Source: Halorhabdus utahensis DSM 12940
GTDB taxonomy: Archaea > Halobacteriota > Halobacteria > Halobacteriales > Haloarculaceae
Length of the DNA: 64,000 nucleotides
Assembly: GCF_000023945.1 (NCBI RefSeq)
Contig: NC_013158.1
Span: forward strand, 2,294,001 to 2,358,000
Direction of reading: 5' to 3'
This document shows, piece after piece, positions 5,885 to 43,626 of this stretch. The stretch's first letter is position 1, and every line of letters starts with the position of its first letter. A model generated the notes under the pieces. It was not told the DNA's origin, did no database searches, and saw only the letters and a list, made by a program, of their open reading frames with translations. A program made the position numbers and the translations under genes.

Positions 5885-5957
5885 GCCGCCGTAGCTCAGA
5901 TGGTAGAGCACCACGCTGTTAACGTGGTTGTCCCAGGTTCGAGTCCTGGCGGCGGCG
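5885..5957 (+). tRNA. tRNA-Asn (anticodon GTT)
   Basis: A 73-nt cloverleaf: acceptor GCCGCCG/CGGCGGC, discriminator G, D arm GCTCAGATGGTAGAGC, anticodon loop CTGTTAA (GTT, Asn), T arm CCAGG-TTCGAGT-CCTGG. A box (TCAAATAAC, about 5855-5863) lies about 27 nt upstream. The last 18 nt of the T arm/acceptor recur at 6200-6217. Confidence 0.96.
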
Positions 5958-6217
5958 TGAATTTCTGTGAAATTCACGGCACGTCAGAGCTTGCTCTGAC
6001 GGCGACGTAAAATCGCGAAGCGATTTTCCGGCCCACGAGAACTGCGTAGCAGTTCTCGGGACGGCGTCTCTTGACGATTCTGCGAGGCGTTTCATCGCCG
6101 AGCGATAGCTATCGTCAAGGACGGCGTACCCCAGAGTCGAACACGGAAGTCGCAGCCCGGGAAGCGAGCGTCAGCGAGTGACCCGGAACGTCTTGCATCG
6201 GTTCGAGTCCTGGCGGC
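5957..6217. repeat. hairpin array downstream of tRNA-Asn, ending in a copy of the tRNA 3' end
   Basis: Four perfect hairpins lie in a row within 102 nt: 5957-5977 (9-bp stem), 5982-6001 (8-9 bp), 6009-6027 (8 bp, GAA loop) and 6036-6058 (10 bp, GTA loop). A longer inverted repeat, TTGACGAT (6071-6078) with ATCGTCAA (6111-6118), is flanked by direct repeats of GGACGGCGT. The stretch closes with GGTTCGAGTCCTGGCGGC at 6200-6217, identical to 5936-5953 in the tRNA. No coding potential is evident. Confidence 0.8.
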
Positions 6218-16992: not shown

Positions 16993-17014
16993 TGTGCGAC
17001 AAAAATCGGCTTCC

Positions 17015-19759
17015 ATGTCAAACTCCGGCAGTTATAATAAAGAAGTAACAAAAACATCTATCGAGTCAATCTATGCCAGTATGTCTGGAGAACGGGAGAT
17101 ATATGACTTTGAGGTCTGGTTAGGATCAGGCAGTCTAGTGCCAGTAAAAATCAAAGAGGGTGTCGTTAATGGAGGGGATGTGACAGGAAGGAATGGTAGA
17201 GGCTGGAAGCGTTTATATGAAATGGATGTTTCAACAATCACTGGCCATCCAGTCGCATCTTACACTGATACAGTATCTATGACATATAGCGGGACAATAG
17301 GCGAAATGAATTCAATTGATGATCTCTCAGAAAAAGAAGAAATATTTTTTGGCTATGGACACTGGGATACGAGCTGGGACGACATTGATTTTAAAGATAA
17401 TCGAACTACAGTTTTGCCTAACAGAGACAATTTCAACTCACAATATGACACGTGGGAGACGAGTTACGATGCAGATATACAGGGTTTAGGAGACTTTGGC
17501 GATAAATTAGTTTTAGACACCCATCTCCGAAATGCGGACAGCGGATGGCTTGATACAGCGTGGGTGGAAATAGGTGGGGAACTGAGAGCTGTACTTGAAG
17601 ATACAAATGCCAAGTCAGATACGTATACATTTAATCTCACTTCTGAACAGGCTACGTATGTTGACGAGGACAGTATGACAATAGAGATTGATGTTCAAGA
17701 CAAATATCTCGATGAGGATATTGGTGTTTATATTAATGATAATTTTGTCGATTTTCTCTTTGCTGATGAAATAACTGAAGGCACAAATACGATTTCGGCA
17801 GATTCTTTTGATGGGTATGAAGTAATTAGTGGGGAGAACACTCTACACTTTGAACTTGATTCTCCAGACCTCAACGTTGCGATACGAATTTCTGAAGCGC
17901 GAATCGATGCAGATGTCCAATCCCCCCCAAACTTCGGCGTGTCCATTGACAGCACGAACGACCCAATAACGGAGGGTGATGATCTGCAAGTCACAGCAAC
18001 AGTGTCAAATAGTGGTGACTTACAGGGTGATGGGACGCTAGAACTATCCGTTCCGAACGTAGGGACCACCTCAACTAACGTGAGCGTGGGAAGCGGAAAC
18101 TCAACGACGAAGACGCTATCAGTGTCAACTAGCACAGGGGATGCAGGGTCTCCGACAGCTACGGTATCTGTGTCAGGTGACGATAGTGCATCAACATCTC
18201 AAACTGTCAAAATTAACGAGCAACCAAACTTCGGCGTGTCCATTGACAGCACGAACGACCCAATAACAGAGGGTGATGATCTGCAAGTCACAGCAACAGT
18301 GTCAAATAGTGGTGACTTACAGGGTGATGGGACGCTAGAACTATCCGTTCCGAACGTAGGGACCACCTCAACTAACGTGAGCGTGGGAGGTGGAAACTCG
18401 ACGACGAAGACGCTATCAGTGTCAACTAGCACAGGGGATGCAGGGTCTCCGACAGCTACGGTATCTGTGTCAGGTGACGATAGTGCATCAACATCTCAAA
18501 CTGTCAAAATTAACGAGCAACCAAACTTCGGCGTGTCCATTGACAGCACGAACGACCCAATAACAGAGGGTGATGATCTGCAAGTCACAGCAACAGTGTC
18601 AAATAGTGGTGACTTACAGGGTGATGGGACGCTAGAACTATCCGTTCCGAACGTAGGGACCACCTCAACTAACGTGAGCGTGGGAGGTGGAAACTCGACG
18701 ACGAAGACGCTATCAGTGTCAACTAGCACAGGGGATGCAGGGTCTCCGACAGCTACGGTATCTGTGTCAGGTGACGATAGTGCATCAACATCTCAAACTG
18801 TCAAAATTAACGAGCAACCAAACTTCGGCGTGTCCATTGACAGCACGAACGACCCAATAACAGAGGGTGATGATCTGCAAGTCACAGCAACAGTGTCAAA
18901 TAGTGGTGACTTACAGGGTGATGGGACGCTAGAACTATCCGTTCCGAACGTAGGGACCACCTCAACTAACGTGAGCGTGGGAGGTGGAAACTCGACGACG
19001 AAGACGCTATCAGTGTCAACTAGCACAGGGGATGCAGGGTCTCCGACAGCTACGGTATCTGTGTCAGGTGACGATAGTGCATCAACATCTCAAACTGTCA
19101 AAATTAACGAGCAACCAGATGGCGCAAACTTCGGCGTATCCATTGACAGCACGAACGACCCAATAACGGAGGGTGATGATCTGCAAGTCACAGCAACAGT
19201 GTCAAATAGTGGTGACTTACAGGGTGATGGGACGCTAGAACTATCCGTTCCGAACGTAGGGACCACCTCAACTAACGTGAGCGTGGGAGGTGGAAACTCG
19301 ACGACGAAGACGCTATCAGTGTCAACTAGCACAGGGGATGCAGGGTCTCCGACAGCTACGGTATCTGTGTCAGGTGACGATAGTGCATCAACATCTCAAA
19401 CTGTCAAAATTAACGAGGCTACTTCCATTTCGTTGAGTGTGACGGGAGACTCCATTACCGTCGGGGGTGTTGCCACCGTTTCTATTGCTGCAAGTCAAAT
19501 AACTCAGATCACCGTTAACGATCTCTGGACTGATTGGAATGTGGATGCATCATTGGAGAAGGGAGAGTTTAATGACAAAGTCACAAATGAAGGAAAGTGT
19601 GTTTTACACTGGAGCTCTCAGCAGAGTAGTGTTTCAGTGCCGATAACAGTTTCAATACCCGAACGATACGTTGGTGGAATATATACTCTCAATCTAACAG
19701 CATCCAATTCGAATGAAACAGTTGAAAAACAGGCAAATCTAGAAATGAATAATAACTAG
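17015..19759 (+). CDS. large CARDB-like repeat protein of the island
   Basis: A 914-residue acidic protein. Residues 1-305 form an unrecognised N-terminal region rich in Asp, Tyr and Trp (for example GYGHWDTSWDD near 110). Residues 306-801 are five copies of a 99-residue beta-sandwich unit beginning NFGVSIDSTNDPITEGDDL and containing TVSNSGDLQGDGTLELSV, the pattern of CARDB/APHP-type adhesion modules. The last 113 residues (from TSISLSVTGDS) look like another beta-sandwich. No signal peptide, lipobox, C-terminal membrane anchor or sortase-like motif is visible, unusual for a protein of this type. Repeat copies are almost identical at DNA level. The ATG at 17015 fits the TATA box. Adhesion or phage-fibre-like roles are possible but unproven. 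Confidence 0.85.
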   Translation: MSNSGSYNKEVTKTSIESIYASMSGEREIYDFEVWLGSGSLVPVKIKEGVVNGGDVTGRNGRGWKRLYEMDVSTITGHPVASYTDTVSMTYSGTIGEMNSIDDLSEKEEIFFGYGHWDTSWDDIDFKDNRTTVLPNRDNFNSQYDTWETSYDADIQGLGDFGDKLVLDTHLRNADSGWLDTAWVEIGGELRAVLEDTNAKSDTYTFNLTSEQATYVDEDSMTIEIDVQDKYLDEDIGVYINDNFVDFLFADEITEGTNTISADSFDGYEVISGENTLHFELDSPDLNVAIRISEARIDADVQSPPNFGVSIDSTNDPITEGDDLQVTATVSNSGDLQGDGTLELSVPNVGTTSTNVSVGSGNSTTKTLSVSTSTGDAGSPTATVSVSGDDSASTSQTVKINEQPNFGVSIDSTNDPITEGDDLQVTATVSNSGDLQGDGTLELSVPNVGTTSTNVSVGGGNSTTKTLSVSTSTGDAGSPTATVSVSGDDSASTSQTVKINEQPNFGVSIDSTNDPITEGDDLQVTATVSNSGDLQGDGTLELSVPNVGTTSTNVSVGGGNSTTKTLSVSTSTGDAGSPTATVSVSGDDSASTSQTVKINEQPNFGVSIDSTNDPITEGDDLQVTATVSNSGDLQGDGTLELSVPNVGTTSTNVSVGGGNSTTKTLSVSTSTGDAGSPTATVSVSGDDSASTSQTVKINEQPDGANFGVSIDSTNDPITEGDDLQVTATVSNSGDLQGDGTLELSVPNVGTTSTNVSVGGGNSTTKTLSVSTSTGDAGSPTATVSVSGDDSASTSQTVKINEATSISLSVTGDSITVGGVATVSIAASQITQITVNDLWTDWNVDASLEKGEFNDKVTNEGKCVLHWSSQQSSVSVPITVSIPERYVGGIYTLNLTASNSNETVEKQANLEMNNN
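17930..19417 (+). repeat. five tandem 297-bp coding repeats
   Basis: Copies start at 17930, 18227, 18524, 18821 and 19127. The first four are spaced exactly 297 bp; the fifth is preceded by a 9-bp insertion (GATGGCGCA, adding Asp-Gly-Ala). Copies 2-4 appear identical; copies 1 and 5 differ at a few bases such as ACGGAGG for ACAGAGG and, in copy 1, AGCGGAAACTCAACG for GGTGGAAACTCGACG. Identity at silent sites indicates recent expansion or gene conversion. Confidence 0.95.
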
Positions 19760-20050: not shown

Positions 20051-20130
20051 ATAGTGTTATATAGAGTTGCGAACGAGTACTGCCGTATATGAGAAACGGC
20101 CTAGCGATGCGAAGGATAATTCGAACGACG

Positions 20131-20252
20131 GTGTTCAGATAAGCACCGATCAAGGAGCTACTTTCTGCCGGCTACACAGCCGAATCCTGGTGGAATGAAA
20201 GGGCGAGGGCTTTCAGAGCAGTCTCACTCAGCTTGAGTCCTTATCTGAACAC
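20131..20252. mobile_element. 122-bp MITE-like element with 13-bp terminal inverted repeats
   Basis: GTGTTCAGATAAG (20131-20143) is an exact inverted match of CTTATCTGAACAC (20240-20252). Between them there is no coding capacity, but 20186-20210 matches 43462-43486 of the large palindromic element at 24 of 25 positions. No clear target-site duplication is visible at the edges. The small size and perfect ends suit a non-autonomous transposable element whose transposase lies elsewhere. Confidence 0.6.
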
Positions 20253-20375
20253 TACCGTCTGTCCGGGACTGATTTGGAGGCCACTTGCGCTTCAGTACAC
20301 TCAAAACCATTTGACCGCAGTCTGTAATATAGTTTATAATTAGTTATTTATTGATTGGATAATAACGGTTCGCGT

Positions 20376-40491: not shown

Positions 40492-40785
40492 AACAGCCAG
40501 AAAGCCCCGAGGCGGTCGGCTCGGTGCGCCGGCTGCGCGCTTCGCTCGGTCGCTCGCTCCCTCGCTGTCACCGGAAATCTCCGATTTCCGAGATCACGAG
40601 AGAGCTTCGCTCTCTCGAACGACAGTGCTTGCCCGTGCGCGCCGTCGCCGAGCGCGAGGCCGGCGAGCCGGCCTCGAATGGTCGCGGCGGTTGCACCGCC
40701 GCGCACGCCTCGCCCCTTTCAGTCCCACCCGAGACCGGTTGGCCAGCCGGCATGGGCGGGACTGAACGGGGGCTTTCTGGCTGTT
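40492..40785. repeat. large palindromic intergenic element, copy 1
   Basis: A 294-bp unit in the 520-bp gap between the protease and gad. Its ends AACAGCCAGAAAGCCCC (40492-40508) and GGGGCTTTCTGGCTGTT (40769-40785) are inverted matches over 17 nt. An inner long stem pairs CCCCTTTCAGTCCCACCC (40713-40730) with GGGCGGGACTGAACGGGG (40754-40771), 16 of 18 positions, around a 23-nt loop. Smaller hairpins fill the rest: GGAAATCTCCGATTTCC, CGAGAGAGCTTCGCTCTCTCG, a 10-bp CGAGGCCGGC stem, and GCGGCGGTTGCACCGCCGC. Its ends and inner stem resemble the element at 43262. No ORF is credible. Confidence 0.8.
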
Positions 40786-43114: not shown

Positions 43115-43261
43115 GGGTATGAAAGGAGCGACACGGGGATACGTCCTTGCATCGCGGCACGTGACGCTTTTGGGATAATCTGCTGTGTGGTTGGATTCGA
43201 CGGAGGATTTCTGTGTTAGCGGCCTTGATTTCACTGCGTTCAGGACCACTATCGAGAATCG

Positions 43262-43626
43262 GTAGAAAGCCCTCACCCGCTCTCGGCCGCTGAGTGACAT
43301 ATTCTCGCTTCGCTCGCGGTTACACCGCTCGCAATCGAGGCTTTAACTTCGCTCAAGCCTCGCATCGCTCGAATAGAGGTCACTCAGCGACGCGCGACAC
43401 GGGTTCGCCCTTTCGATCCACCAGGCGAATAGTGTGCGTAGATCAGCTATGTGACCGAATTCCTGGTGGATTGAAAGGGCGAGGGCAGCGTGGTGGCTTC
43501 GCCGCCACGTTATAAGGCGGTCGGTGTACACCGACCGCCCAGGTCGCGTGCGTCTCAGCGGCCCCTATCCGAGCGAAGCGAGGATATCCTGCTGAGCGTG
43601 CGCGAGCGGCCCGAGGGCTTTCTACT
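43262..43626. repeat. large palindromic intergenic element, copy 2
   Basis: A 365-bp unit in the 606-bp gap between the FKBP and a membrane-protein gene. Its ends GTAGAAAGCCCTC (43262-43274) and GAGGGCTTTCTAC (about 43613-43625) are inverted matches, sharing AGAAAGCCC with the element at 40492. The inner stem pairs CCCTTTCGATCCACCAGG (43408-43425) with CCTGGTGGATTGAAAGGG (43462-43479), 17 of 18 positions, around a 36-nt loop. Other hairpins include GGTGGCTTCGCCGCC and CGGTCGGTGTACACCGACCG. The 3' arm plus GCGAGGGC matches the MITE-like element at 20186-20210. Confidence 0.8.

Follow-up and report, generated by a model that had tools for sequence, protein, structure and literature searches.

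A decayed IS6-type MITE copy in Halorhabdus utahensis and the probably selected fold of its family's core

The segment considered here lies in a window of 64,000 nucleotides from the genome of Halorhabdus utahensis DSM 12940, and it is an ordinary decayed copy of a MITE, the interest of which lies in the core of its family. We regard it as very probable that this segment is an internally deleted MITE of IS6 type which was moved in trans, that the core is an integral part of the element, and that the folded strand of this core has seemingly been under selection. The features of the window on which this reading draws are collected in Table 1.

Table 1. Coordinates of the MITE copy, its parts and the two-armed element in the window
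Feature	Position	Strand	Remarks
MITE copy, 130 bp, hairpin domain deleted	20127..20256	+	flanks ATTCGAAC / GTCTGTCC, without target duplication
Left 17-bp terminal inverted repeat GACGGTGTTCAGATAAG	20127..20143	+	1 mismatch to GGYRGTGTTCAGATAAG (16/17)
Right 17-bp terminal inverted repeat GGTAGTGTTCAGATAAG (reverse complement)	20240..20256	-	17/17, same sequence as both ends of the intact 697-bp IS of G005
Collapsed core CCTGGTGGAATGAAAGGGCGAGGGCTTTC	20186..20214	+	hairpin lost, frame of the class-wide hairpin retained
GGCGAG, 6-bp repeat, site of the 87-bp deletion	20202..20207	+	seen on alignment to 216-217-bp copies that are intact
Two-armed (head-to-head) copy of the core	43265..43622	.	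each arm with a hairpin domain; shared with G004 at this place, not present in G006
GCGTTCAG (GTGTTCAG in G004)	43236..43243	+	21 nt from the left arm, on its outer side; weak candidate for what is left of an IS6-type end

The window copy and its family in Halorhabdus

An earlier note, made from the window alone, had described perfect 13-bp inverted ends, and these were borne out (20131-20143, GTGTTCAGATAAG, and 20240-20252, CTTATCTGAACAC). The ends extend past the 13 bp to 17 bp (GGYRGTGTTCAGATAAG), and the element thus occupies 20127-20256, or 130 bp. In the 3.1-Mb genome (3,116,795 bp, single contig) there are 11 exact copies of the 13-mer, and since 39 genomic sites match it with two mismatches or fewer, compared to 6 for the reversed pattern, the end sequence is beyond chance. 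The normal form of the family is 216-217 bp long: the left 17-bp end is separated by 41-42 nt from CCTGGYGGANYGAAAGGGCGAG, then come a hairpin domain of about 80 bp and CGAGGGCTTTC, and 25 nt lead on to the right end. Related copies in the H. utahensis genome span 130 to 592 bp, and the MITE is found in at least five genomes in copies too short for a transposase of their own.

Duplications of 8 bp appear when the ends are read as 17 bp, that is, with four more bases on each side. They are perfect in 14 of the 31 copies compared and match at 7 or more of the 8 positions in 15, while random re-pairing of the flanks leads one to expect 0.09 copies on average at that level. Copies in this genome carry the direct repeats CGAGCGTG, CACGACAG, ATTCAGGG and GGCCCCGG, and ten further perfect duplications were found in relatives, one of which also has ATTCAGGG and is the same insertion as here. 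The target of the insertion at 225854 is contiguous in G006 and roughly contiguous in G004, and that of the insertion at 946642 is contiguous, with small gaps, in G004; such empty sites in sister genomes indicate that the family has moved within the genus. A search of plasmid records gave one full relative, carried by the H. tiamatea plasmid pHTIA, as well as one partial match in Haloarcula. The element is therefore no single-copy sequence, and the reading of it as a MITE held up on its relatives in the genome, on an IS of the genus with the same ends, on the 8-bp duplications in many copies and on the empty sites in sister species. Inspection of the flanks for target duplications was thus positive for the family but negative for the window copy itself, the flanks of which show none with the 17-bp ends taken as borders; an empty site for this copy was not found in the relatives, where its flanks are not conserved.

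Alignment of the window copy to a 216-bp copy shows that 87 bp, the whole hairpin domain, are missing between GGCGAG at the 5' foot of the hairpin and the same motif at its 3' foot. A deletion of equal extent is present in L229 of G004, and another one, of 86 bp, in L060. Loss of 87 bp between two 6-bp GGCGAG repeats would most likely be caused by slippage across the palindrome, and it resembles the repeat-mediated core deletions of Haloquadratum (PMC3119063). The same event bears on the similarity to the 3' arm of the 43.4-kb element, reported earlier as 24 of 25 positions in 20186-20210. This count stands, and in a whole-genome search the two share a 31-bp match with E = 4e-6. However, homology probably stops short of the final 'GGC' in the shared 'GAAAGGGCGAGGGC' and is confined to CCTGGTGGAWTGAAAGGGCGAG: because the deletion joined CGAGGGCTTTC to GGGCGAG, the 'GGC' of the window copy would derive from the far side of the hairpin.

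Several long copies (L247, L055, L246, L056 and L226), as well as window positions 43488-43540, contain extra modules of 52-64 bp, each composed of two small hairpins with perfect stems. The modules enter the core at particular sites and are sometimes nested, and other genera have similar ones at an identical site (L182, L198). The orthologous copies L056 of this genome and L246 of G006, which share their target duplication, differ by one 58-bp module. Double-hairpin elements and GC clusters of fungal mitochondria (PMC4478555) are likewise small GC-rich hairpin modules that nest like the 52-58-bp modules of the MITE; this is an analogy only, and homology is not expected. Elsewhere in the window, four perfect small hairpins stand in a row at 5956-6058, directly after the tRNA gene at 5885-5957, and none of five shuffled control windows had even one such double hairpin. 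A tandem repeat with a unit of about 297 bp lies at approximately 18104-19417, within the open reading frame 16994-19759 (921 aa), with stretches of 117-118 bp identical in five units.

A likely partner element of the IS6 family

Regarding the source of transposase, the expectation of a full-length IS with the same ends was confirmed in the genus, where an intact one is present in G005, but the window's own genome has only a decayed copy. In G005 this IS is 697 bp long, and both of its 17-bp ends are identical to those of the MITE, with no mismatch. One copy there encodes an intact transposase of 220 aa and another has an 8-bp duplication. The transposase belongs to the IS6 family (NF033587, E = 1.2e-56; match to PF13610). 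The only PF13610 match in the H. utahensis genome is the decayed copy, of 696 bp with an open frame of 139 aa, and none was found in G006, despite many MITE copies there, a point that speaks against mobilisation by such an IS.

Judging from these sequences, the 697-bp IS is the likely partner of the MITE. Its transposase would act in trans, through the 17-bp ends that both elements have, and insert the MITE with an 8-bp target duplication, as we infer from the common ends and the length of the duplication. Because the only IS copy found in the genome is decayed, the motor of the MITE has probably been lost here and the window copy is probably fixed in place.

The haloarchaeal IS6 elements ISH14, ISH15 and ISH29 have ends of 14-17 bp starting with GG, generate 8-bp duplications and are 696-698 bp long (PMC6807381). 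The 697-bp IS agrees with them in length, ends and duplication, and its transposase is related to theirs (PMC6807381); unlike these elements, which carry a transposase, the MITE has just the ends in common with the IS. MITEHarch3, listed under the IS6-family MITEs (PMC6807381) and present in ISfinder, is also haloarchaeal and, judging from this listing, may belong to the same family.

The core with and without transposon ends

Searched for in 391 Halobacteria genomes, the core pattern was found in 82 of them and in 35 of the 86 genera sampled, with up to 61 copies per genome; the reversed pattern was found in none of the genomes listed in the same search. Of the 93 cores outside Halosimplex, 28 have an IS6-type end where one would be expected, either 40-43 nt ahead of CCTGG or 14-26 nt past CTTTC. 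Left ends with a match at 10 or more of 13 positions number 22, compared to 0.5 for shuffled ends, and some cores with ends (L176 and L187, 8/8) have retained their duplications. Within the MITE, the core has a fixed position in many genera, with 40-43 nt between it and the left end and usually 25 nt between it and the right.

Cores lacking any element boundary, which the earlier note had counted against a transposon, do exist in part of the family: in Halosimplex none of 32 cores has IS6-type ends, and in other genera 65 of 93 lack them, with a weak trace of ends at most. With so many cores without such ends, the core family is wider than the MITE. It could accordingly be proposed that the core is an independent structured repeat, spreading by itself and picked up once or repeatedly by IS6-type ends. 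This is compatible with the many Halosimplex cores that lack ends, lie beside another structured segment and have tandem 3' parts, as well as with the two-armed elements at 43.4 kb and 1351 kb, which have no clear ends. However, spacing between core and ends is equal in Halorhabdus, Halorussus, Halonotius, Halovenus and MAGs, for which one origin is the simplest explanation, and in L059, which is two-armed, spacers of the same 25 nt separate the core from IS6-type ends. We consider such a capture rather improbable, and the earlier suggestion that the palindromic family was captured by a transposon is not favoured, given the fixed distances of the core from the ends in the MITEs of many genera. 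Instead, the comparison of these sequences suggests that the core, which also exists outside the MITE, is probably old and integral to it and not late cargo.

L059 (genome positions 2768223-2768544) is two-armed like the 43.4-kb element and has IS6-type ends with 25-nt spacers on both sides; it is a link between the two-armed form and the form enclosed in IS6-type ends. A third core-like two-armed palindromic element, GAAAGCCCC...GCCCCTTTCAGTCCCACCC / GGGCGGGACTGAACGGGGGCTTTC, is located at 40500-40777 of the window, with double hairpins in one arm and the other arm collapsed. In Halosimplex pelagicum, three cores (L070, L076 and L125) have behind them a tandem array of their own 3' end (CGAGCGCGGCGAGGGCTTTC and a similar spacer) in units of about 55-60 bp, and are preceded by another structured segment ending in CGGCTGGGGAGG.

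The fold of the core and its possible meaning

Two inner domains occur within one frame of the core. Across 13 sequences, two-sided changes are present in 11 of the 12 pairs of the 12-bp stem, and 98.6% of the cells of stem and foot pair, compared to 81.4% when shuffled and 27-46% when slid, the counts of stem covariation not being independent events. In 78 sequences, which are likewise not independent events, the wobbles in the stem comprise 31 G.T and 5 A.C cells (sign test, p = 1e-5), and this excess points to folding of the strand written here (CCTGG...CTTTC). Many unpaired positions of the core, unlike the changing stem, do not vary between genera. For one whole MITE, folding gave z = -4.3, a value obtained on the opposite strand and uninformative on strand. 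Stem covariation, one-sided wobble and invariant unpaired motifs together make selection on a single-stranded fold likely.

Alternatively, the stem could be kept paired by mutation alone, through palindrome-perfecting template switching, and the core could be functionless filler of the MITE. Palindromes are prone to such events, the family is rich in other perfect small hairpins, and the cores showed no clear orientation bias to genes. Such a process, however, does not predict the preference for wobbles on one strand, and the unpaired motifs have stayed invariant across genera though the stem varies; we hold this explanation to be unlikely, if somewhat less so than capture of the core. A role as a 3'-UTR or terminator was rejected, as the upstream gene shared the strand of the core in 45 of 90 cases and the downstream gene in 53 of 90, without clear bias, for cores without a clear left end and with rough gene calls.

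In Rfam 15, no match was obtained at the gathering score in the window and none at E of 1 or less in six loci, and a literature search with core sequences gave nothing related among the matches listed. PATEs of Halobacteria derive from IS605; they are frequent in this class, lose their cores through deletion between repeats, and have neither terminal inverted repeats nor target duplications (PMC3119063). It is conceivable that the core, a palindrome with a wide distribution in the same class, is the omega RNA or end hairpin of such an IS200/IS605 element. The PATEs and IS605-type elements of Haloquadratum (PMC3119063) do share with our family a palindromic sequence and short forms produced by core deletion, but these PATEs differ in having neither inverted ends nor duplications. 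The MITE family has terminal inverted repeats and 8-bp duplications, which PATEs lack by definition, in this genome all 11 TnpB-type genes are more than 10 kb away from any core, and no Rfam match was obtained for the core. An origin as PATE or omega RNA was therefore rejected on the inverted repeats, the duplications and the distance to TnpB-type genes, and we consider it extremely improbable. Pneumococcal BOX and RUP and the Correia-type repeats (PMC3049150) are also MITE-like, with strong predicted secondary structure, and BOX is modular; they differ in hosts and sequences, while the fold of the MITE core is conserved over many genera with strong covariation.

Returning to the reading of a selected fold, the folded single strand of the core is, by comparison among its copies, likely to be under selection. 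Our first guess is that it acts as an RNA, and our second that it is a recognised single-stranded DNA hairpin. Tentatively, and with well under even confidence, the core may represent a structured nucleic-acid family across Halobacteria, RNA or single-stranded DNA, in which the frame is constant and two or more inner domains are exchangeable, borne by an IS6-type MITE in some lineages and kept or spread without it in others, such as Halosimplex.

MITEs are usually regarded as ends plus filler. In the present family, the 'filler' is the best conserved part, with a covarying fold, invariant unpaired motifs and no Rfam family. The fold has been kept across many genera of Halobacteria though it is mostly lost from the window copy, and this hints at an unstudied function. 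If the fold is an RNA or a single-stranded DNA signal, the family would be a large uncharacterised family of archaeal elements open to genetics, in which copies with full, collapsed and absent hairpins provide a natural test of the role of the fold.
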